Position numbers and translations under genes: made by a program. A stretch of 64,000 nucleotides of DNA from NCBI GenBank assembly GCA_903813345.2, contig CAIIXF020000004.1, positions 18,709,513 to 18,773,512 of the forward strand. Reading direction: 5' to 3'. Numbering within the stretch: position 1 is the first letter of the stretch; each line of letters starts with the position of its first letter. The stretch is from Owenia fusiformis. Lineage: Eukaryota; Annelida; Polychaeta; Sabellida; Oweniidae. Below are positions 5,912-40,535 of this stretch, piece by piece. The notes beneath the pieces are model-generated. The model did no database searches and had not been told where the DNA came from. It saw only the letters and a list, made by a program, of their open reading frames with translations.

Positions 5912-6147
5912 GGCGCTTGCATCCAGTAAGAAACATTGGAACATTACAGTCCACTGTACGAAGGGTCGACGTGATGGACTGCACTCTTCGCAAGTTGATG
6001 TGTGCAAGGAACACATTGATGTGATGCCTATTGTAAAGACTGCAGCATATGTAGCAAAACAGACCTGTCAGTACATGTTCCAAGATAGACGCTGGAACTG
6101 TTCCTCTATAGAAAGTGTCCCCAAAATGACTAGGGATCTCAGCCTTG
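5912..6147 (+). CDS. WNT11: Wnt11 exon (N-terminal Wnt domain)
   Basis: Acceptor TTTGCAG ends at 5911 and donor GTAAGT starts at 6148. The first base completes a codon begun in the missing exon, very likely Trp by comparison with Wnt11. The exon encodes [15 protein letters not shown] through [12 protein letters not shown] to DLSL and ends one base into a Gly codon. It contains an N-glycosylation sequon (NIT) and the RWNCS motif. Confidence 0.93.
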
Positions 6148-9100
6148 GTAAGTATAAGTTGCAGCACTGAAGCATACTCATCAGAACAATTTGGATCTAA
6201 TTATAGCTTGACATTGTGAGTTTGTTTGATGGCTTGACAGTGTGAGTTTGTTTGATGTCTTGACAGTGTGAGTTTGTTTGATGGCTTGACAGTGTGAGTT
6301 TGTTTGATGGCTTGACAGTGTGAGTTTATTTGATGTCTTGACAGTGTGAGTTTGTTTGATGGCTTGACAGTGTGAGTTTGTTTGATGGCTTGACAGTGTG
6401 AGTTTGTTTGATGGCTTGACACAGCTAAATTAGGATGATTGCTTGAATTTGCTTGTATTTGTGTGATGTCTCGACAAAGTGGTTTAGGTTGATGGCTTGA
6501 TGTCAATGCTGTCCCTTAGGCTCTATAACAATCGGATGACCAGAGTTTAGGAAATTTTAGCTTACGATTTTAAACTTTACAGTTTAAATTTGACATGAGA
6601 AAAGAAACACAAATTTCTGAATTTCACTTTGCAGGTACAAGAGAGCAAGCATTTGTGTATGCTGTATCATCTAGCTCCTTGGCCCACACAGTTTCCCGTG
6701 CCTGTGCCTTAGGACACACACTCCGCTGCGGCTGTGGCCTGCTACCCACAGAAGCACCCACAGAGGAATTTAAATGGGGAGGCTGCAGTGATGATTTAAG
6801 ATATGGCATTTCATTTACTAAGACTTTTGCCGATGCACCATTTTTAAAAAGAAACAAAAAATCCTCAATGAATAGACATAATAACATGGTGGGAGTACAG
6901 GTAAAGTAGCAGATTTCATATTCAGACACATTCACTTGTTCTAAGAGTAACAGCAATTCGGGAAAGTTGCATTTATTTGCAATTTTGATATGGCTTTCTG
7001 TAAGATTCTCATCTGTAATCCTTTTGATTTTGATATGACCCATTGCCTTTATTCAAAGTTTTTGTTCAAGCATTTTTTGTAATATTTAGGTTCATTCAGA
7101 TACGCATTAAGAACAATGGCTTTTGTGATGGTTATAAGATTACAGGCAATTTACACAAAGTCAGTATAAGAAATCCAAATCCCAAAAACAATTCAAAACA
7201 TAAGTATAATCAATGCATTAACCCACCAATTAATAAATACAAGCTTCCAATATTCCTCTTTTAAAGTATAATTTTGGAGAGCAACTGCCTCATGGTTCCC
7301 CCATTACATGAAAGAGAATAAAGTTTAATTCTTATTTTTAATGTTGAGCAGCTGGGTGTATTCAACAATGCATCTATTTGAAGTTAAATTAAGTTTAAGA
7401 CATTAAAACAGTCTAACTATGGGAGAATGGTAAGATCAGGGGTTAGATCAAAGAAATGGGTCAATTTATTGATTCAATGTCCCTATATTATTGCCTGCTT
7501 TAATAGCAGAGATGTGATTTCACATTTTATGTGGTGATTTCTACTCTAAACTAAGACATATAAAATTAGAATTCTGTTTTCTTGAAGTTAGGGACTGTGA
7601 TTTAATACACTTGCAGCTATAATTTCTTTGAAAATAACTTCAAGGTGTTGCAAAAATAACTTGTTTATTGACAGGCTTTAACTAAATAAATCAAGTGACC
7701 AATCTGTCCAAAGTGCATGACATTTCCAGTCCCCAATATATTCCCTCTTCAATGACTCCAAAATCCATTTCTAGTCCCCGATATATTCCCTCTCCAATGA
7801 CTCCAAAATCAATTTCTAGTCCCCGATATATTCCCTCTCCAATGACTCCAAAATCCATTTCTAGTCCCCAATATATTCCATCTTCAATGCCATTTCCAGT
7901 CCTTAATTTATATCATCTCCAATGACTCCAAAAGCCATTTCCAGTCCTTAATTTATATCATCTCCCATGACTCCAAAAGCCATTTCCAGTCCCCGATATA
8001 TTCCCTCTCCAATGACTCCAGAATCCATTTCTAGTCCCCGATATATTCCATCTCCAATGACTCCAAAAGCGCGCATTTGTTTTTTAAGAGTATCGCGTGA
8101 ATGTAACTTTGATTCCCTGGATTATAAGATAATATTCTAATTAAAGGTATATATCATTTTAAAGCTGTTTCGATGAAGTTTTTATGACTACACTCCGTTC
8201 ACGATTCTTGCGCGTTCTTTTTAAAAAAAAAAAGTTTTTTACCAAAACATCTGGCAAATATTCCCTGTTGACACGTTACATTTTGAATTATTTTTCGTCT
8301 TTAAACGCTCATAACTCAAACAATATATGACTATTATACTTATTTTTCATCTTGATAAAGGTAGATGGAAGTTTTATTTCAAAGGATGAATTTTAGTAAG
8401 CGTCCCATATTGTGACGTCATAGAGTTTGAAAAATAGAATCTGTTGACAGCGACCTTTTTTGCTCATTTTTTGTTACCTTCAACTTTTCAGGTGTCCATT
8501 AAACAAAAAATACGAGATCAATTTTTAATAAATCATACATGATTATTTTGCTCTTAATTTTGTTCGCAAAGGTATGTGTTTTCTGTTGTATGTGGAAAAG
8601 TGGAGGACGAAAGGTTTTCAAAATTCATTAAAATTGGGCTAATTTACGCCATTCGCCTATTTAAAAGCACAGCAACACGTATATTTATTTCACCTAAAAT
8701 ATCAATTGATTCGTGTTTTATGATGCTCCGATCCCATTGTTAATACATATATGATATCAGAGTTATTCGCCTTAAATATTTTGAGATATAGAGGCAAATG
8801 TGGAGGACGAAAGGATTTCCATATGTGTACATTTTTCTCAAAAGACGTCACATTCTGTGGTGTTAAAAAGCGAAAATGTGTAATAATGCGTGCGCGACCT
8901 TTTTGCGACACGTCATTACATTAAAGATAATTTGCAAGCAAATAACCATTTCCAGTCCCTAATATATTCCTTCTCCAGACTAAAATTTCAAGTCCCCGAT
9001 AAATCCCCTGCTCAGAGTTAATTTCATGAAAATAAAAATCATATAAATTCCAGACTTTGCTTTTCCAAATAATGTATGTTTTTGTCTAACATTTTGTTCA

Positions 9101-10267
9101 TAATGTACCATAGCACAATACAAATGTATTACGTTTAACTAAACCTTTTTTTATGCAAATGCAACATCACAAAATTTATGATATAGCATTGAGCCATCTT
9201 TTGCCAGTGTACCGCCTTAATCAAATAATTTGCCTGGATACTTTAATATTAAACTTATTTCAGGTGATAGACAGCAGTTTGGGCACAGCATGCAAATGTC
9301 ACGGTGTATCAGGATCATGCGCTCTAAAAACTTGCTGGAAAGCACTTCCTGACATGGAAAAAATAGGACACAAATTAAAACATAAATATGCCTATGCTGT
9401 GGAAGTTGAAAGTAGGCGTGTTGGAAGGACTAAGAGATTGGTACCAGTTGATCATGATAAAATAGACATTGGCAATGATGAGTTGATATATTATACTACA
9501 TCACCAGATTATTGTGGGCCAGACCCAAAGACTGGCTCTGTCGGCACTGCAGGAAGGTAAGTAGAACATGTTCCTGCAACACTGTCTGCACTGCCTTTCC
9601 AACCTGAGACATTACGGTTTAGATTCATCATTGTTACATTGTGACAACTTTGGTTAGCAACAAGATTAAAAAGAGTTCTCCTGTATAAATGGTTCTATCA
9701 TGGGCCCAGTTTTGTTTCCTCTGGTAAGGTATTAGTTTGTGGCATAAGGGACTTGATGAAACACTAGTCAATATGCAGCTTTGACAATGATGACATCTAA
9801 TTGAGAGCAGATGGCTAAACAGGTTCCTTTCTGTATTTCCTTTCAGTATTTCAGGAGAGACATCTTTCTACTCATTTATTGCAAAAACAGTATCTACCTG
9901 TACTTCAATCAACCTGCTCATATTTACATTGTACTATCTTATTACTTGTACTATCACAAGTAATGTGTTTTAAGACTAATCAAAAAGTAATATTTAAACA
10001 ATGTATTTCAAGTTCTATCATGTATCCTACCAACATATGATAACTGGTTCATAAATACAATGAGAGTAATGTAGTTCTTTCTTTATTTGTAGGCGGTGCA
10101 TCAAGGGCGATGGAGGGTCTGGGGGTTGTGATAGCATGTGTTGTGGGAGGGGCTTTATCACCCTAAATCTACTGAAGAAGGAGAGGTGTGAGTGTAAATA
10201 CTACTGGTGCTGCTACGTGAAATGTAAAACATGTAGGAGATATGTTGAGATCCATAAATGTAGATAG
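5912..10267 (+). CDS. WNT11: Wnt11 secreted signalling protein (5' exon missing)
   Basis: Four exons join in consistent phase: 5912-6147, 6635-6900, 9264-9556 and 10093-10267 (stop TAG). They give about 322 residues. Vertebrate Wnt11 is about 354, so what is missing is essentially the signal-peptide exon. Wnt hallmarks seen are RRWNCSS, the cysteine pattern, [10 protein letters not shown] with the serine that Porcupine lipidates, and the C-terminal block ending [13 protein letters not shown]. Wnt11-type features are [28 protein letters not shown] and SPDYC. The product should be a secreted, lipid-modified ligand for Frizzled receptors; Wnt11 is known mainly for non-canonical signalling and convergent extension. 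Every intron begins GT and ends AG. A few AATAAA-like signals lie downstream (about 11516-11612), but the 3' end is not fixed. Assignment to the Wnt family is certain; assignment to Wnt11 is strong. Confidence 0.93.
6208..6425. repeat. Tandem repeat, 26-bp unit, about 8 copies
   Basis: Unit CTTGACAGTGTGAGTTTGTT followed by TGATGG, in the intron after the first visible Wnt11 exon, about 60 bp beyond its donor. Every unit contains GTGAGT, a good splice-donor core, but the unit is not copied from the neighbouring exon. Confidence 0.93.
6635..6900 (+). CDS. WNT11: Wnt11 exon (middle)
   Basis: Acceptor TTTGCAG ends at 6634 and donor GTAAAG starts at 6901. It encodes [19 protein letters not shown], then a cysteine cluster (RCGCG), [13 protein letters not shown] and [12 protein letters not shown]. 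It ends in phase 0. Confidence 0.95.
7721..9005. repeat. 45-bp tandem repeat, split by an insertion
   Basis: About eight copies of a 45-bp unit (CATTTCCAGTCCCCGATATA, then TTCCCTCTCCAATGACTCCA) cover 7721-8069 in the Wnt11 intron. Two further decayed units appear at 8946-9005. The gap 8070-8945 is unrelated sequence, so the array appears to have been split by an insertion. Confidence 0.85.
8070..8945. mobile_element. Putative ~875-bp insertion inside the 45-bp array
   Basis: Unrelated sequence interrupts the array; the expected junction AAAAGC/CATTTCC is separated by it. A phrase GTGGAGGACGAAAGG occurs twice (about 8599 and 8796). No transposase and no clear terminal inverted repeat were seen, so its class is unknown. 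Confidence 0.45.
9264..9556 (+). CDS. WNT11: Wnt11 exon with lipidation motif
   Basis: Acceptor TTTCAG ends at 9263 and donor GTAAGT starts at 9557. It encodes [19 protein letters not shown], then [21 protein letters not shown] and [18 protein letters not shown]. The serine in HGVSGSC is the conserved palmitoleoylation site of Wnt proteins. Confidence 0.96.
10093..10267 (+). CDS. WNT11: Wnt11 last exon
   Basis: Acceptor TTTGTAG ends at 10092. The exon encodes the C-terminal cysteine-rich block ([35 protein letters not shown]) and stops at TAG 10265-10267. Confidence 0.96.
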
Positions 10268-12991: not shown

Positions 12992-13171
12992 TTAACTATA
13001 AGCAGGTAGTCCAAAACTCTCAGGCACAAATTCTTCTAGGGAATTCAAAATTTGTGTCACTTTATCCCGGAGTTGTGATTGGTCAGCTTGTTTATCTGGT
13101 ATCCATATACACTGCATGCCTGCATTTATTGCACCCAAGGCTCCATTGTTGGCATCTTCAAATACTAGACA
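12992..13171 (-). CDS. PUDP: PUDP exon 5 (HAD motif IV, C terminus)
   Basis: The acceptor ATTGCAG precedes 13171. The exon encodes CLVFEDANNGALGAINAGMQ to SFGLPAYS and a stop. Its first 27 bases and the intron sequence just before it are repeated upstream as a 51-bp tandem array, so several identical acceptors compete. The one used here is the only copy followed by the conserved GALGAINAGMQ, so it must be the downstream-most. Confidence 0.92.
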   Translation of the reverse strand, partial: CLVFEDANNGALGAINAGMQCIWIPDKQADQSQLRDKVTQILNSLEEFVPESFGLPAYS

Positions 13172-16100
13172 CTGCAATATATTTAGAAAGTACATATTGT
13201 TGGCATCTTCAAATACTAGACACTGCAATATATTTAGGAAGTACATATTGTTGGCATCTTCAAAGACTAGACACTGCAATATATTTAGAAAGTACATATT
13301 GTTGGCATCTTCAAATACTAGACACTGCAATATATTTAGGAAGTACATATTGTTGGCATCTTCAAAGACTAGACACTGCAATATATTTAGAAAGTACATA
13401 TTGTTGGCATCTTCAAACACTAGACACTGCAATATATTTAGAAAGTACATATTGTTGGCATCTTCAAACACTAGACACTGCATATACATATAGCAAAGTA
13501 CATATTGTTGGCATGTTCAAACACTAGACACTGCATATACATATAGCAAAGTACATATTGTTGGTACATGGTATCTTCAAACACTAGACACTGCAATATA
13601 TTTAGAAAGTACATATTGTTGGCATCTTCAAACACTAGACACTGCAATATAGTTCATATTGTTGACATCTTCAAATACTAGACACTGCAATATATTTAGA
13701 AAGTACATATTGTTGGCATCTTCAAACACTAGACACTGCAATATATTTAGAAAGTACATATTGTTGGCATCTTCAAATACTAGACACTGCAATATATTTA
13801 GAAAGTACATATTGTTGGCATCTTCAAACACTAGACACTGCAATATATTTAGAAAGTACATATTGTTGGCATCTTCAAAGACTAGACACTGCAATATATT
13901 TAGAAAGTACATATTGTTGGCATCTTCAAACACTAGACACTGCAATATATTTAGAAAGTACATATTGTTGGCATCTTCAAACACTAGACACTGCATATAC
14001 ATATAGCAAAGTACATATTGTTGGCATGTTCAAACACTAGACACTGCATATACATATAACAAAGTACATATTGTTGGCATCTTCAAATTCTAGACACTGC
14101 AACATATATTGAAAAGTACATATATATTCAAACGTATCTCATACTTGAGTGGGTTTGGGGTAGATATCACCCGGGAATATATATCATATCTGAGGAGCGG
14201 GCAGGATATATTATGTATATCCCGCTTCAGGGCAAATGCGGGCAGATATAATATATCCATCCTGCTCACGGGAATTTTTCAAAAGTTTTAAAATTTTTTA
14301 AAAAATTAACATTTGAAAGTTTAAAATTTGTTAAAAAGTTTAAATGTTACAATTTCATTGTATTGAACTAAAAGGAATATTACGAAAATGTTAAATACAA
14401 ATTGTACTTTTACAGTATAGGCCTATCTTGTCATTTGAAAAAGGTGGAACCCCAAACCCACTTAAGTATGAGATACACCAGTTATGTACGATCGGTTTTG
14501 GATAAAGGGTATATCCCTCGGGAAATATTTATATCTCCCCTTGGTCCCTTCGGTCCCTCGGGATGATATAAATATATTCCTCAGGATATAACCTATATCC
14601 AAAACCTCCCAGTACATAACCCTTATATATCCAAACACAAGAAACTGCAATAGTGCAATATACACAAGGGTCATGCTGTTTGAGATTTCACAGTTTGGTA
14701 TCGTGATTGTATTATACAGTTCGGTTATGATTGTGGTTTTCATGGACTATGTAACATGAGCGAACAGATATGAAATTGGTCCAAAAATCAGAAAACATTC
14801 TGAGTGTGTCAAATTGTTTTATTGTTGTAAGTATTCACAATGACATACAAAGTGGACAAGCATAACTCTTCACTAGTACTCTGTTTCAGTAATGTTTATT
14901 GATTTTCTTGTTCAATGTTCATGTTTTTTCAACACATAAAGTAACTTGTCTACTTTTGGCAAAACTAGCACAGTACTTCACTAAACTGAATCCTTTTTTT
15001 ATTCAGAAACATAAGTTCATCAACTTTGACAGGAGACAATATGGCTCAAGGGCGAACGTAATACCTGGAATGTGCCTGCCTCGTTGGCAAATTCAAAGCA
15101 TTTGCTGTTCGGCTTTTTACCGTAATACTGTTCTATGAACCAATAGGATCGCGCGATATATTTAGCATAGATTACTTCCGGGTCAATATGCCAATGAAAT
15201 TTATCAACATTTCCGCTTGACTCCTTATATACACTATGATGTGGAATATTAAGAGCCATTGGTCTTGATAAATGTAATTTACCTTATCTGGAATTGGTTT
15301 CTCATCAAATCTCTGAGCTGCGACTAGAAAGCAATCTGGAGCTGGTTTCCCATGTATCACATCTGGATCACTACTACTGAGAACAACATGGTGAAACAAT
15401 TCAAATAATTCTTGGTGATTTCTGGTTTTTAATTCATAGTTGAATTTGTTTGAGCCAGTTGCTATAGCGATTGGAATGTTGTGTTGTGACAGGTGACGTA
15501 TCAATGTTTCTGCACCTGAAAATTAATCAGATTTCATTCAATGAACGTTATATAATATTTTATTTTTAATGAAGTATGTAATTCTATTATATTTTACCCA
15601 ATTTTCAAGCAAAATGGTTTGTCCTAATTTTCTAGCAGAACAGTTCCCTTTAACGATTTATCCTGAATGAGTACCTGGCAGAAGCTCACAGTGTGGAAAA
15701 AGTCTCTCCTGTGCTTCATGCATTTGTCTCAGATATTCCTCCACAGTTATAGGAAGCTCTAACTCATCTGAAATAATAACAGCATTCTCTATAAAACTAC
15801 CGGTAATATCATTATTTGTATCAATATGTGAACACCTCTCTATAATACAATTACTTTTAGCTGGTCCCAATGGTGTCTGCATTAAACAGGTTTTACTGTA
15901 TAAACAGTGATTTGAATTCAGTCTAAAAAATGATACTTAACAGCAATTTTTAATACCTTTTAAAATAAATTTGGAATAATATTATGACAAATGAAGAAAT
16001 CTTTTTTAAAAATTCTCTAAACTTCATAATTGTTCATAACAAGGTATAGACTGTTCATTTTGAGATGTCAGAGGTATTACTGCCTTGGGGTACTAAAATG

Positions 16101-25743: not shown

Positions 25744-27705
25744 CAGGGTGATCCAGAAGTAACGTCAAAGATGTTGTAATTTCAAAAGTATTCATCAGAT
25801 CTTCATGAAATTTGGTATACATGTACCCACAACATTTCTGAGTTACCATCTCAAAGATTGGAATTCAATCATTTCATTGGTTGAAATTATGGTTGCTATA
25901 GTAACCCGATATCGCGTAACCCGGGGCAAATTACTTAACGTGTAATGCGTAATCTCAAAATATCAACAAGATCTGAAATTGTTATATCCTCAACATTTTA
26001 TTTCACAACAATATAAATCATACTATTGCACAGTTACTAATAATAGTTCATTCTACATAATTGCCACCATTTGCAACACATTTCTCATGTCTGGATACCC
26101 ATTCCTTGAACACAGAATTAAATCCATTAGAACTCATTCCTTGTAGGGCTAGTACTACGGCATTTTTCAATTCCTCACAGGATTGAAAATTATTTCCACT
26201 AAGGTTTCTTTTTAGTTCCCCATACAAATAAAAGTCACTGGGGGCAAGATCAGGTGAATAAGGGGCATGTTCAAGTTGTTGAAATCCAAGTGTTTGGACT
26301 GTGTTGCTGATCAGGATTGCAGTGTGCGTAGGGGCATTGTCCCAATGCAAGATAAACTGCTGCAGATGTCCGGGACGCTTTTTCCTCAGGGAACGTTGAA
26401 GATCACGCTTCAGAACCTGAAAAACAAATGTTTAATGGTTGTTAAACCAGTTGTTTCATTGATTGGATTTGGATTTGAATCATGGCCATGGAGTTATAAT
26501 TATATTGACAGTGAACAACATTTAAATACTTTAATTTAAAAATAAAATTCACAGTATGATGTATTATTAGAACAAATGATATCTTACCTTTGCAATGTAA
26601 ACGGCATTAATTCTCTGGCCAATGGGAACAAAATGGGTTAACACCATTCCTCTAATGTCAAAGAATGTCACAACCATTTGTTTCTTTTGTGGAATTCCTG
26701 GTACTATTTTAGGCTTGGTTGGTGTTGGGGAGTTGTCATGTTTCCACGATGAACTTTGTTGCGTGGTCTCTGGGATGTAGAATGATAGCAATGATTCGTC
26801 ACTCGTAATGATCTTGTTAAGAAAGTCATCTCCATCTCTCCGATATTTTGCAAGAAAGTCCCTTGAAGCCTTAACACGCCGGTCTTTCTGCTCCTGTGTC
26901 AAGTCATGCGGCACCCATTTAGCAGACACCTTCTTTAACAGACAGTTCTTTGTCAGTATCCGTTGCACAGTCCCATAGCTCAGATCGTGTTTTTCAGCCA
27001 ATTCTCTGATAGAAATTTGCCTATTGTCCATAACATCAGCTTCAATTGCTTTGATGGTTTGATCATCGAATGACGACACTGGCCTGCCTCCTCGCTGCTT
27101 GTCTACCACTTCATCATATCCACTGGAATACTTGTTAAACCACCTGTAAATGTTTCTCTCAGCAATGGCAGCTTTACCATATGCCTTCTTTATCTGTCTT
27201 ATAGTCTCTTTTACACCTTTCCCCAACTTTACACAGAACTTAATGTTTGTTCTTTGCTCTATTTTACTCTGACTTGGCGCCATCTTGAATTGGATGGGTT
27301 AGTGTCCTTGGTCATGTTAGTATTTGTCATGGATGATGGAAGCAATTCAAAGAAATTGAAAGCTTTTTATGAATGCCTATTGTGACATCACAACTATTAC
27401 ATATTTGTTACCATGGCAACAAATATAAAAATCATAGAAAACAAACAATGAACATTTTCAAATGTTACTGACTTTTTAAATTAGAGAAATTCACAAAAAC
27501 GTTATGGTTTCTCTTCAATTTGCCCCGGGTTACGCGATATCGGGTTACTATAGCAACCATAATTTCAACCAATGAAATGATTGAATTCCAATCTTTGAGA
27601 TGGTAACTCAGAAATGTTGTGGGTACATGTATACCAAATTTCATGAAGATCTGATGAATACTTTTGAAATTACAATGTCTTTGACGTTACTTCTGGATCA
27701 CCCTG
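25744..27705 (-). mobile_element. Apparently intact mariner transposon
   Basis: 1,962 bp with 189-bp terminal inverted repeats at 25744-25932 and 27517-27705. By eye these differ at only two positions, a sign of recent insertion. TA target duplications at 25742-25743 and 27706-27707. It encodes an uninterrupted mariner transposase on the minus strand if one 171-bp intron is removed. Confidence 0.93.
26048..27283 (-). CDS. Mariner (DD34D) transposase with one intron
   Basis: Exon 1 is 27283-26588 and exon 2 is 26416-26048, joined in phase 0 to give 354 residues, close to the usual ~345. The N terminus has the paired helix-turn-helix region (IEQRTNIKFCVKLGKG, SYGTVQRIL). WVPHDL is the mariner linker motif. 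The catalytic triad is Asp162 (TSDES), Asp258 (HWDNAPTHT) and Asp293 (APSDFYL); 34 residues separate the last two, and YSPDLAPSD is the mariner signature. The intron (26587-26417) starts GTAAGA and ends TTTCAG, and removal restores the expected alignment at AVYIAK/VLKRDLQRSL. The enzyme would cut and paste the element at TA sites in the nucleus. Confidence 0.88.
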
Positions 27706-34608: not shown

Positions 34609-34788
34609 ATGCAAACATTAAACCTGAGTTTTGCTGGATGTGGCTTCCTGGGGATCTACCACTTAGGTGTTGCTCAGTGCCTTGTAAAGCATGGTGACCG
34701 TCTCTTGAGAGAAGTGCAGTGTATAGCTGGTGCTTCCGCTGGCTCACTAGCAGCCTCTGCCATAGTAGCAGGCCCAGATAAATTAGGG
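34609..34788 (+). CDS. PNPLA4: PNPLA4 exon 1 (oxyanion hole and nucleophile Ser)
   Basis: ATG at 34609; encodes MQTLNLSFAGCGFLGIYHLG and CIAGASAGSLAAS, ending PDKLG. Donor GTGAGT at 34789. Phase 0. Confidence 0.92.
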
Positions 34789-37700
34789 GTGAGTTAACAA
34801 GAAAATATCACCAGAAATTCACCTATATGTTGATTATGGTGGAAACAATTTCAGTATATAAGGTTAGTTCCAATGATTCATCTTTATGTCACATATTGTT
34901 AATGGTTTCCAACTTTTTGTGCATGGTGTTCGGTGGTTGGCAGTTTGTGGTCAGCATATGGCATCTGTAACAAATGGCAGGTGGTGACATTTTGCATCTT
35001 AATGGCTTGTTTTTATTTACATCAATCCCTTTATATTACATATTCTCATTTATTCACACCAAGTGCTTTAACGAACTTAGCCTGCATGGTGAGTGTGCTG
35101 ATGAGTAATTTTAGGCCTTTAGTATATTTATCCCATTTTAAAGTACGGTATCTCTAATAAATTAATTGTGTTGCTTTATATAATTTTATAATTTATAGAA
35201 CTACAATTTTTCTTTCAGGAGTGTGTCAAATTCTGTTTCTCCCTGGCTGAAGCACAAGAGAATCAACGATTTGGAATGTTGACACCAAAATTCAGTCTTC
35301 TGAAGCCATTAGAGGAATTCCTACACACTATGCTCCCTAATGACGCCCATGTTACATCATCGGGAAAGCTGTTTGTATCACTTACGGAAATGTCTTCCAA
35401 TAAAAATGTTTTGAAATCTACTTTTGAGACGAAGGATGAATTAATACAGGTATGTGCTATAATCACCTGAAGGTGGGATACTTTATTTTTCCCATATGAT
35501 TGTTCCATATGTTACTTAGGAAAAGTACATTTGGTTGGAGGATAATTGGAAATAAACTACATATGCAACTCAGTGTAAAATATTAATAAATGAAGAGAAA
35601 CTAAAACAGTAACTGTACTGATATGTAGAAATGCAGATGATCTAAACTCTGCTCATATTGATTATAGTTTAGAGATAAACCACATTCATCATGTAAATTA
35701 AAAACAAACCTTGGGAAGATTTCACCTGATAATAAAGTTCAGTTGGAATACAGTGAAGCCCTCATATGTCTGTCTGTGCATACTATAATTAATATAATAC
35801 TGGATATGACAATGGAAAAAATGAAAATCAATCTATAATCTATCTACATGTTGTACAGGGTGACCCAAAAAAATGCAACCCTCCATTTCTTCAATATTTT
35901 TCTTAAATGGTGGTAAATTGCTCTGAAATTTGGCACACGAGGACTATATTCAATGTGGGATCCTCTGGCAAAGTTCCAATAATTCTAGTCTTATATTGAT
36001 AGAGTTATGGTCGTTCCAAAATATGCTCCAAATGTCGTCCATTTCCAATGTTAGGTTTTCGAATGAATCACATTCCCTTCTTTCTGAACATGTAAATTCA
36101 AGAAATAATGTGTTCTGGGATCACAAATTCCAGATGAAGTGCTTCAAAGGCCCCTTCATTTTGTTAAATGCACAGCTTGGGCTGCCAATTTCCAAACATG
36201 AAATCATCAGCCCCTTTTGGTTTAAGGTTGATAATGGCAACACTGTTACTGTTAACACACAGCGCAATCCAGGTGTTCCCAGGAAGTTCTAGGCAGTTCT
36301 AGAGTGACATAGAGGCTTCAATAGACAATAACAGTGGTTCTAGAAGGATGGAGCTACTCCTCACACTTCTAATGATAGCATAGCCTGGCTCACTAGTCAT
36401 TTCTATGAGAAGATTGTCTCTCCTAGGACGGAGAACCCGTGGTCATCCCACAGTCTTGATCTCAATGCCCCTGACTTCTATATATGGGGTTATTTAAAGG
36501 ATAATGTGTATGAAAATAACCCTCCCGCAATTGCAGAACTCCAACAAGCAATGGCTGCAAAAATTTGAGCCATACCCATGGGGAAGAATGCATCCGTGTT
36601 ATGAATAGTTTTCCTAGACGACATCTGGAGCATATTTTGAAACAACCATAACTCTATCAATATAAGACTATGGTTATTAAACTTTGCCAGAGGATCCCAC
36701 ATTGAATGAAGTCCTTGTGTGCCAAATCTCAGAGCAATTTACCTCCATTTAAGAAAAATATTGAAGAAATGGAGGGTTACATTTTTTTGGGTCACCCTGT
36801 AGATGTCCAAATGTTAGTCTAAATTGATATTTGTGTAAAGATTGTATGGTTATGTTGCTCTTAAACAAAACACATGAGGCAGTATATTTATATACTACAA
36901 GATGTGTGTCCATCAATCCATCTCTCAATTTGTCTAATTCAGTTTGTCTTAGTCATTATTGTTAAGACATTTCAAATAATACCTTTTTTATATGGAAATT
37001 GATCCTTGGGGTTTGCTACTCACTGGAGTTGCTGTTTATAGTAATTTAGTTGTTATTGAATCTGTCAAATTAATCCATAATTATCTCCCAGCAAGCCTAT
37101 TACAAGCCACACCTTTAATCTCCAGATTATTCATCTAACCAACTGCTCTTCTGGTGTTTAGTACAAATGTGAATATCAATTAGGCCATAAGAAGTAGATT
37201 CTTTGTTTTGCATTCTCCTTGCTTGCACGATTTTGAGTAAATCATAAAAAACAAACACATCCAAATAGTAATCACAAGGGTCTGAAAATGCCATCGCATT
37301 TCATTCAATAAGAATCAGACGAAATGGCGGATAATTTGATGTGCGTCAAAATTGACAGTGTTATTGATTACTTTGGCATACATTGTGTATTTTCTTATTT
37401 TTTACCCTTGAGTAATAGCTATGTTTAAATTTATTAGATATGTGTTTGTAATTACTGCAAATTGGTATGTTATCCCTTAGCCCATAAAATGTATACATTT
37501 CTCAGGAAACAAGTTGTGTTTTTCTTGAGTTTGTGTTTGTTTTCCTTGTACCCTTGCATGAATTGAATTTTGCCAGGACGCAAAACAAAGAATATACTTC
37601 TTATGGCCTTATTAATACTAAATGTGAAGTCTGTTTTCTTTATTTTTTGCAAATTCTACTTCAACTCTATTTTCTTTTAAAAACATGATATGACCCTAAT

Positions 37701-40535
37701 GATATATTTCTCATAGTCATTTAAATACATTTCATTTAGCATGCTTTCACTCATTACCATCTTCATTGGGAAGTTCCAAGCACTGGATCCAGGTGAACCC
37801 TTGGTGGGCCCAGAAATAAATATTTGAGCCCAAAAAGTATTTGGGCCCAAACATTTTGTAGGGCCTCAATTAGTGGGCCTTTTTGGGCATTACTTGGCCT
37901 TTTGTCAAACTGTTAAACAATTTTTGGATTTTGGGGCTCAAAATTTTCAAGATTTGAAATCTGCCCCCCCCCCCCCGTCTTGTTAGCTTCTGGATCTGCC
38001 AGTGATTGAACTGCTTGTTTTGAACTTACTATACTCTAATATTCTTTCTTACTTTTTTCCAGTGTTTGCTGGGTAGTAGCTGTATTCCACATGTTACTGG
38101 CACCACTCCTATAGAGATCAATGGAAAGGTAGGTAGCTATATTCCACATGTTACTAGCACCACTCCTATAGAGATCAATGGAAAGGTAGGTAGCTATATT
38201 CCACATGTTACTGGCACCACTCCTATAGAGATCAATGGAAAGGTAGGTAGCTATATTCCACATGTTACTAGCACCACTCCTATAGAGATCAATGGAAAGG
38301 TAGGTAGCTATATTCCACATGTTACTGGCACCACTCCTATAGAGACCATTAGAAAGGTAAGTAGCTATATTCCACATGTTACTAGCACCACTCCTATACA
38401 GGTCAATGGAAAGGTAGGTAGCTATATTCCACATATTACTGGCACCACTCCTATAGAGACCATTGGAAAGGTAGGTAGCTATATTCCACATATTACTGGC
38501 ACCACTCCTATAGAGATCAATGGAAAGGTAGGTAGCTATATTACACATATTACTGGCACCACTCCTATAGAGACCATTGGAAAGGTAGGTAGCTATATTC
38601 CACATGTTACTGGCACCACTCCTATAGAGACCATTGGAAAGGTAGGTAGCTATATTCCACATGTTACTGGCACCACTTCTATAGAGACCATTGGAAAGGT
38701 AGGTAGCTATATTCCACATGTTACTAGCACCACTCCTATACAGGTCAATGGAAAGGTAGGTAGCTATATTCCACATGTTACTAGCACCACTCCTATACAG
38801 GTCAATGGAAAGGTTGGTAGCTATATTCCACATATTACTGGCACCACTCCTGTAGAGACCATTGGAAAGGTAGGTAGCTATATTCCACATGTTACTGGCA
38901 CCACTCCTATAGAGACCATTGGAAAGGTAGGTAGCTATATTCCACATGTTACTGGCACCACTCCTATAGAGACCATTGGAAAGGTAGGTAGCTATATTCC
39001 ACATATTACTGGCACCACTCCTATAGAGATCAATGGAAAGGTAGGTAGCTATATTTCACATTTACTGGCGCCACTCCTATAGAGACCATTGGAAAGGTAG
39101 GTAGCTATATTCCACATGTTACTGGCACCACTCCTATAGAGACCATTGGAAAGGTAGGTAGCTATATTCCACATGTTACTAGCACCACTCCTATACAGGT
39201 CAATGGAAAGGTAGGTAGCTATATTCCACATATTACTGGCACCACTCCTATAGAGATCAATGGAAAGGTAGGTAGCTATATTACACATATTACTGGCACC
39301 ACTCCTATAGAGACCATTGGAAAGGTAGGTAGCTATATTCCACATGTTACTGGCACCACTCCTATAGAGACCATTGGAAAGGTAGGTAGCTATATTCCAC
39401 ATGTTACTGGCACCACTCCTATAGAGACCATTGGAAAGGTAGGTAGCTATATTCCACATATTACTCGCACCACTCCTATAGAGACCGTTGGAAAGGTAGG
39501 TAGCTATATTCCACATATTACTGGCACCACTCCTATAGAGATCAATGGAAAGGTAGGTAGCTATATTCCACATAATACTGGCACCACTCCTATAGAGATC
39601 AATGGAAAGGTAGGTAGCTATATTCCACATGTTACTAGCACCACTCCTAAAATCTCCTAGAATGGTCAATGGGAAGATAGGTCACTATTCCACATGTGAT
39701 TGGGATCAACATTCAATGTTTTCATTTACATAAATCACATATTTCATAATAATTTGTGCAATGAAGTCCCATTCACTTTCAACCCAACAACATTCATAAA
39801 TACAATAATGTTTGATGGAAAGGGGAATTTGATTGGTTTAAATATAAGTCATTTAATCAAATATTTGACAAAACAAGTTTCTTTCCTGATAATTTAATAA
39901 TCTTGTTCAATACACTTAAGTTCTTAAGCAGGGGGGAGTAGCTGATTTTCGCTAGAAAATTCAACAAATCCGGAAAATTAATTTTTCATCTGTATTTGCA
40001 GAAATATAAAGATGGTGGGATCACAGACAACCTGCCAATATTCAAAAATGGCCGAACAATTCGTGTGACACCATTTTGTGGTCGTCAGGAAATCAGCCCT
40101 CATGACAAAAGGGGGCGTGGTTGGTATCTGACATATTGTAATGAAGAATTCCAAGTGAATGCCAATAACCTTATAAGGGGTTACCACGCCTTCTCTCCAC
40201 CACAAAAGGATTTGATGTGGATGTATTACTACCAAGGCTATTTTGATGCAACAAGATTTCTTAAAGCTGAAAATTTATATGATGATGTCACTGGACAAGA
40301 CGATGTACCAAAATCAGAGAATATGCCAGATTCTCACTCAGGTATTGAAAATTGTGTCCACCCACAAGTCAATATGTCTCCAAAATCTATTAGATTGACA
40401 AAAAGTGATACGGATATTCATTCACTAGAGGAAAAGGAGGAAAATCAAGATGCAAGAAAGCGCTGTGCATCTTCTAATGGGTCCAATACAAATGCCAGAG
40501 AATCTGACAAAGTTCAATTTGAGTCTACTTTATAA
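34609..40535 (+). CDS. PNPLA4: Patatin-like phospholipase, PNPLA4-like
   Basis: Exons 34609-34788, 35219-35449, 38063-38128 and 40002-40535 (all junctions phase 0) give 336 residues. The patatin fold is clear: oxyanion-hole motif GCGFLG (10-15), nucleophile elbow GASAGS with Ser43, and the catalytic Asp163 in DGG. The N terminus (NLSFAGCGFLGIYHLG) and GRTIRVTPF favour PNPLA4; DELIQ and GITDNLP also recall PNPLA2 (adipose triglyceride lipase), so orthology is likely but not proven. Adjacency to PUDP, as in human, supports PNPLA4. The family hydrolyses acylglycerols or retinyl esters at lipid droplets or membranes. The C terminus extends about 80 residues beyond the domain, is polar (EEKEENQDARKR) and looks disordered. 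Exon 3 is tiny (22 codons) and is followed by a 28-copy array of itself plus its splice donor. Confidence 0.88.
35219..35449 (+). CDS. PNPLA4: PNPLA4 exon 2
   Basis: Acceptor TTTCTTTCAG ends at 35218; donor GTATGT begins at 35450. Encodes ECVKFCFSLAEAQENQRFGM to TFETKDELIQ. Phase 0 on both sides. Confidence 0.92.
35856..36799. mobile_element. Decayed mariner/Tc1-like element in PNPLA4 intron 2
   Basis: Ends CAGGGTGACCCAAAAAAATG and its complement, with TA on both sides (35854-35855 and 36800-36801); the inverted arms are about 150 bp or more. Plus-strand remnants include HEIISPFWF, DGATPHTSNDS, PWSSHSLDLNAPDFYIWGYL and AELQQAMAAKI, typical of the catalytic region of this superfamily. Stops and frame changes interrupt them. 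Confidence 0.87.
36137..36567 (+). pseudogene. Broken transposase of the 35856-36799 element
   Basis: Reading across frames, segments HEIISPFWFK, DGATPHT, HSLDLNAPDFYIWGYLKD and NPPAIAELQQAMAAKI occur in the expected order. DGATPHT and LNAPDF would be the second and third acidic positions of the DDE/D triad. The gene cannot make a full protein as it stands. Confidence 0.65.
38063..38128 (+). CDS. PNPLA4: PNPLA4 exon 3 (22 codons, shortest form)
   Basis: A pyrimidine-rich acceptor (CTTTTTTCCAG) ends at 38062. The exon encodes CLLGSSCIPHVTGTTP then IEINGK, with donor GTAGGT at 38129. This matches the segment between the DELIQ block and the catalytic DGG in relatives. Using later donors in the following array would extend the exon by 19 codons per copy, in frame, for up to 16 extra copies. 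Confidence 0.85.
38075..39655 (+). repeat. 57-bp array repeating PNPLA4 exon 3 and its donor
   Basis: About 28 copies of a 57-bp unit. Each reads GTAGGTAGCTATATTCCACA, TGTTACTGGCACCACTCCTA, TAGAGATCAATGGAAAG, so its end plus the next start forms AAAG|GTAGGT, a strong splice donor. The first unit is exon 3 itself (starting GGTAGTAGCTGTATT). The period equals 19 codons (VGSYIPHVTGTTPIEINGK), and the frame stays open from exon 3 through copy 17. A 1-bp deletion near 39061 (CACATTTACTGG) then leads to a stop at 39082. Variant copies carry GTAAGT (38356) or GTTGGT (38814) and ACCATTGG or AGGTCAATGG near the end. Confidence 0.97.
40002..40535 (+). CDS. PNPLA4: PNPLA4 exon 4 (catalytic Asp, C terminus)
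   Basis: Acceptor TATTTGCAG ends at 40001. Encodes KYKDGGITDNLPIFKNGRTI, SPHDKRGRGW and the PPQKDLMWMYYYQGYFDATR block conserved in PNPLA2/4. A polar tail and a stop at 40533-40535 follow. Confidence 0.92.
   Translation, partial: KYKDGGITDNLPIFKNGRTIRVTPFCGRQEISPHDKRGRGWYLTYCNEEFQVNANNLIRGYHAFSPPQKDLMWMYYYQGYFDATRFLKAENLYDDVTGQDDVPKSENMPDSHSGIENCVHPQVNMSPKSIRLTKSDTDIHSLEEKEENQDARKRCASSNGSNTNARESDKVQFESTL

Follow-up and report, generated by a model that had tools for sequence, protein, structure and literature searches.

The analysed window, a stretch of 64,000 nucleotides from the annelid Owenia fusiformis, carries a patatin-like lipase gene of four exons, the third of which runs into a 57-bp minisatellite, and a PUDP homologue with a second repeat array at one of its exon boundaries (Table 1). 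When joined in a spliced model, the lipase exons encode an uninterrupted protein of 336 residues, and neither the frame nor the splice sites nor the catalytic motifs are damaged. A single Pfam match spans the whole joined patatin domain (PF01734, E=5.7e-23), GASAG occupies residues 41-45, and the Asp of the DGG motif, predicted to be catalytic, is residue 163, the position given in the first-pass annotation. That annotation had named the gene PNPLA4, which is probably right; the patatin domain with its GXSXG and DGG motifs is that of a patatin-like lipase.

Table 1. Features of the lipase gene and of the two boundary arrays (positions within the window)
Feature	Position	Strand	Basis
Lipase exon 1, PNPLA4-like (MQTLNLSFAGCGFLG...GASAGS...DKLG); donor GTGAGT; GXSXG nucleophile residues 41-45	34609..34788	+	spliced model, motif search, Patatin PF01734
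Lipase exon 2 (ECVKFCFS...KDELIQ); acceptor TTTCAG, donor GTATGT	35219..35449	+	spliced model
Lipase exon 3, 66 nt / 22 codons, phase 0 (CLLGSSCIPHVTGTTPIEINGK); acceptor TTTCCAG, authentic donor AAG/GTAGGT	38063..38128	+	spliced model; exon of the C6 paralogue alike in size and phase
Lipase exon 4 (KYKDGGITDNLPIF... to stop); acceptor TTTGCAG; predicted catalytic Asp163 of DGG	40002..40535	+	spliced model
57-bp minisatellite, 27.7 copies	38072..39649	+	TRF and copy table
56-bp copy lacking one base, which breaks the frame; stop at 39080; closes the in-frame donor run	39041..39096	+	copy table, spliced model
Boundary array of acceptor type, 51-bp unit (modal), 19 GCAG/TGTCTAG acceptors	13145..14123	-	TRF, copy table; PUDP identity by match
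Authentic last exon of PUDP-like gene (CLVFEDANNGALGAINAGMQ... to stop)	12993..13171	-	first 27 nt within repeat unit

Bearing on orthology to vertebrate PNPLA4 rather than to PNPLA1/2/3/5, the neighbour of the lipase gene has pseudouridine-5'-phosphatase as its best PDB match (1.8e-52). PUDP-like and PNPLA4-like genes are adjacent (12993-40535), as are human PUDP and PNPLA4 at Xp22.31, which may reflect a deeply conserved synteny. Beside this pair is a Wnt gene (about 5912-9557, plus strand). The window also contains a Mariner-like transposase (26051-27298, minus strand), apparently in two pieces, helix-turn-helix and catalytic, as judged by eye from the translations.

The tandem array in the lipase gene is real, and its size agrees with the original estimate of about 28 copies: TRF, run on the 64-kb window, reports 94% matches and 0% indels. 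Successive copies are spaced by 57 bp everywhere except for the one 56-bp copy, which accounts for the single base that was said to be missing near 39061. As had been proposed, the first copy is coding sequence (copy 0 is the final 57 nt of exon 3), while the other copies lie inside intron 3. The unit therefore spans the exon-intron boundary, and a total of 27 AAG/GT donors (the slash marks the splice junction) follow each other in a row, all of them AAG/GTAGGT except for GTAAGT at 38357 and GTTGGT at 38813. The view that each copy combines the exon body with a fresh donor is correct for the donor but not for the body, as the exact sequence IPHVTGTTPIEINGK is absent from most copies, where ETIGK, QVNGK, HIT and VTS are common variants. 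The last 46 nt of exon 3 are identical to those of the intronic copy at 38186, and 43-45 of these 46 positions are identical in the other copies compared; differences from the exon are found mainly at the start of the unit, where the exon has GGTAGTAGCTG against GTAGGTAGCTA. The copies sort into 13 sequence types, variants being common to distant copies and scattered in their order, with the type order FGH found twice, a pattern of minisatellite-like turnover. The 57-bp array is found at a single place in the assembly, which represents a single haplotype.

The comparison with a paralogue on contig C6 (L016) indicates which of the donors is the original one. At the matching place, the paralogue has an acceptor, 66 nt and a donor (ALLCSSFVPFYSGMVPPSFKGV, then RYVDGG) in the same phase and with no array, and alignment of the domain with a solved bacterial patatin-like protein shows no insertion in front of KYKDGG either. 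Because the paralogue has a plain 22-codon exon, we conclude from this comparison that the first donor (38128) and the single-copy exon are ancestral, the copies being derived intronic DNA. Extensions by 19 residues would consequently enter a site which, according to both the paralogue and the bacterial alignment, is conserved in length.

In the spliced model, the first donor and 16 further donors join exon 4 (40002) in frame, so that the predicted limit of 16 in-phase extensions holds. From donor 17 onward (the authentic donor being donor 0) a truncated product results, owing to the base lost in the copy at 39041 and the stop at 39080. The first-pass annotation also pointed out that the frame stays open through copy 17. 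A unit that is derived from coding DNA and has a period divisible by three is open automatically, and one reverse-strand frame across the array is likewise open (339 aa), so the open forward frame is not special.

Selection on the copies was assessed in the 25 full-length intronic copies, counting distinct states per site without a tree, which makes this a small test. Among 15 distinct changes, 1 is synonymous, 14 are nonsynonymous and none creates a stop; 29% synonymous changes are expected under neutrality, which gives P = 0.044 for at most one. The probability that 15 changes create no new stop is 0.80. In this set, neither the repeat peptide nor an extended exon gives evidence of purifying selection. 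Nor do the donors of these 25 copies show constraint: 2 of the 15 changes fall into the 9-nt donor, where 2.4 are expected, so that its conservation does not exceed that of the remaining unit.

The window abounds in minisatellites, TRF reporting 49 rows, and a second boundary array is located 24 kb from the first. Its unit combines the final part of an intron with the 27 nt (CLVFEDANN) that open the last exon of the PUDP-like gene, and the six upstream acceptors closest to this exon keep the frame, with no stop. With its 19 near-identical 3' splice sites, the PUDP acceptor array is the mirror image of the lipase donor array. By a hand estimate (about 16 arrays of at least 3 copies, an assumed 20 exons), random placement would produce around 0.5 such overlaps with exon boundaries compared to the 2 seen, so we do not claim a strong excess.

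Of the possible explanations, we strongly favour that the lipase array is a “mirage” minisatellite that is spliced out together with intron 3, with no selected function of the copies being required. Mirages are known from amphioxus as tandem repeats which span exon-intron boundaries, reportedly without disturbing splicing (PMC3087553, PMC3902484), and anatomically the lipase array is a mirage. It would have been born by a tandem duplication across the boundary, caused by slippage or unequal exchange, in which the real donor (GGTAGGTAGC) was joined to a stretch resembling a donor within the exon, 57 nt further upstream (GGTAGTAGC). That copies differ from the exon mainly at the start of the unit means that such a donor-like stretch is present in the exon, one unit before its real donor. 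Further rounds of unequal exchange would then have expanded and homogenised the array, including the exonic copy, and the identity of the exon 3 tail to copy 38186 over 46 nt is what concerted turnover predicts. The working enzyme would be made from the first donor, the rest of the array being removed with the intron. Such an array may be tolerated since it leaves exon 3 intact, and since splicing now and then at a donor further downstream would do no more than add 19 residues with each step, keeping the frame, for up to 16 copies. What counts against a reading as mirage only is that every copy has retained an AG/GT donor which matches the authentic one completely or almost so; the GTAAGT at 38357 even fits the donor consensus better. 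Strong, identical downstream donors could be used at some rate.

Exon arrays also occur elsewhere in the genome, which has been reported as 505.8 Mb in 12 chromosomes (PMC9977687). We searched a total of 498 Mb (GC about 34.5%), with nearly all matches being on contigs C1-C12. Two further high-copy arrays are known by their match coordinates only: a kinesin motor exon (profile 290-327; C2:23266359-23269174, minus strand) with 18 copies at 159 bp, including one step of 158 bp, and the start of a ubiquitin-protease (UCH) domain (profile 1-36; C9:8171898-8173571, minus strand) with 11 copies at exactly 150 bp within an open frame of 666 aa, which may be a coding repeat. Two-copy cases have steps of 109, 178 and about 94-99 bp (the last at L038). 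When 60 myosin and kinesin exon loci were analysed by TRF and self-BLAST for mirages, the only finds were an acceptor duplication with two copies in L038 and, in L036, a doubled stretch of 17 bp, and searches of the genome for P450, ABC and DEAD-box exons yielded no arrays with constant spacing. The L038 case (1365-1560) is a decayed duplication of a myosin acceptor and exon start with 79% identity, perhaps an old mirage.

The periods of the four high-copy arrays (57, 51 as the modal value, 159 and 150) are all multiples of three, while the two-copy steps of 109 and 178 bp are not. With a one-in-three expectation for each period this has a probability of 1/81, or 1/27 without the array whose frame had contributed to its selection. 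As the sample is small and favours coding units that can be detected, this is suggestive only, a lead rather than a result. It may mean that read-through or mis-splicing is not wholly neutral. A broader interpretation is that exon-boundary minisatellites are common in this genome and filtered by frame, such that only those with a multiple-of-three period reach high copy number, because a low level of extra donor or acceptor use results in real proteins graded in length by in-frame steps. We regard this as unlikely; if it were true, PNPLA4 would belong to a group of genes that continuously supply isoforms of different length.

The first-pass annotation had suggested either a ladder of donors or an array of decoys, and neither finds support in our data. 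With a ladder, splicing would take place at several among the 17 donors that are in frame, producing lipase isoforms with n x 19 additional residues just before the catalytic Asp and so tuning activity or localisation. Near-equal donors that are all in phase, with no stop through 16 extensions, would be suited to this, and the periods of 51, 159 and 150 in the other high-copy arrays point in the same direction. The insertion site, however, is length-conserved and lies just before the catalytic DGG, the paralogue manages with a plain 66-nt exon, the copies show neither coding nor donor constraint, and an open frame is what descent from coding sequence would yield anyway, so that we consider a ladder quite improbable. 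In a decoy array, non-productive binding of U1 to the 26 downstream donors would tune the efficiency or timing of exon 3 splicing, or would retain transcripts in the nucleus. Intronic U1 sites can enhance upstream donors, and dense, identical U1-like sites do follow the 66-nt exon. As these donors have changed as freely as the rest of the unit, and as a general minisatellite process also covers the PUDP array, which is of acceptor type, decoys are a very improbable explanation. It is extremely unlikely that the animal has just one or two copies that were inflated during assembly, even though the array is at one assembly place only, as this would explain neither the 13 types with shared variants in scattered order nor the several arrays of independent sequence that have the same form elsewhere in the genome.

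Under the mirage interpretation, the two arrays extend to an annelid a type of boundary-spanning minisatellite that, in the literature consulted, is described only for lancelets, with donor and acceptor examples within one 64-kb window. Such a genome offers many natural experiments on the choice of the spliceosome among identical donors and on the reading frame as a filter on the growth of intronic repeats. As intronic copies can match the exon exactly, satellite homogenisation could rewrite coding sequence.

The closest known systems are the amphioxus mirages, described for Adh3, the globins BflGb6 and BflGb9, TnC and PGBD5 (PMC3087553, PMC3902484; TnC and PGBD5 are noted in the latter). There, as in the lipase gene, part of an exon and its splice site have been copied into the intron and show repeat turnover; units range from tens to about 160 bp, which includes the 57 bp found here, both donor and acceptor types exist, and the genes stay functional. 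The globin mirages have 3-6 copies compared to about 28 in the lipase array, and the latter is from Owenia rather than a lancelet. A tandem duplication crossing an intron-exon boundary and carrying splice signals along has also been described for potato RdRp (PMC4974935); the lipase copies differ in that they are located in an existing intron, with no sign of a new one. Duplicated exons with mutually exclusive or cassette splicing share with the lipase array the presence of tandem coding-exon copies in one gene, but the lipase copies lack an acceptor of their own, are very similar and closely spaced, and show no coding constraint. A better example of mutually exclusive exons in this genome is a series of about eleven copies of a myosin head exon (profile about 27-81; C9:37986009-37994334, minus strand), which are roughly 0.3-1.8 kb apart and have the appearance of that arrangement.
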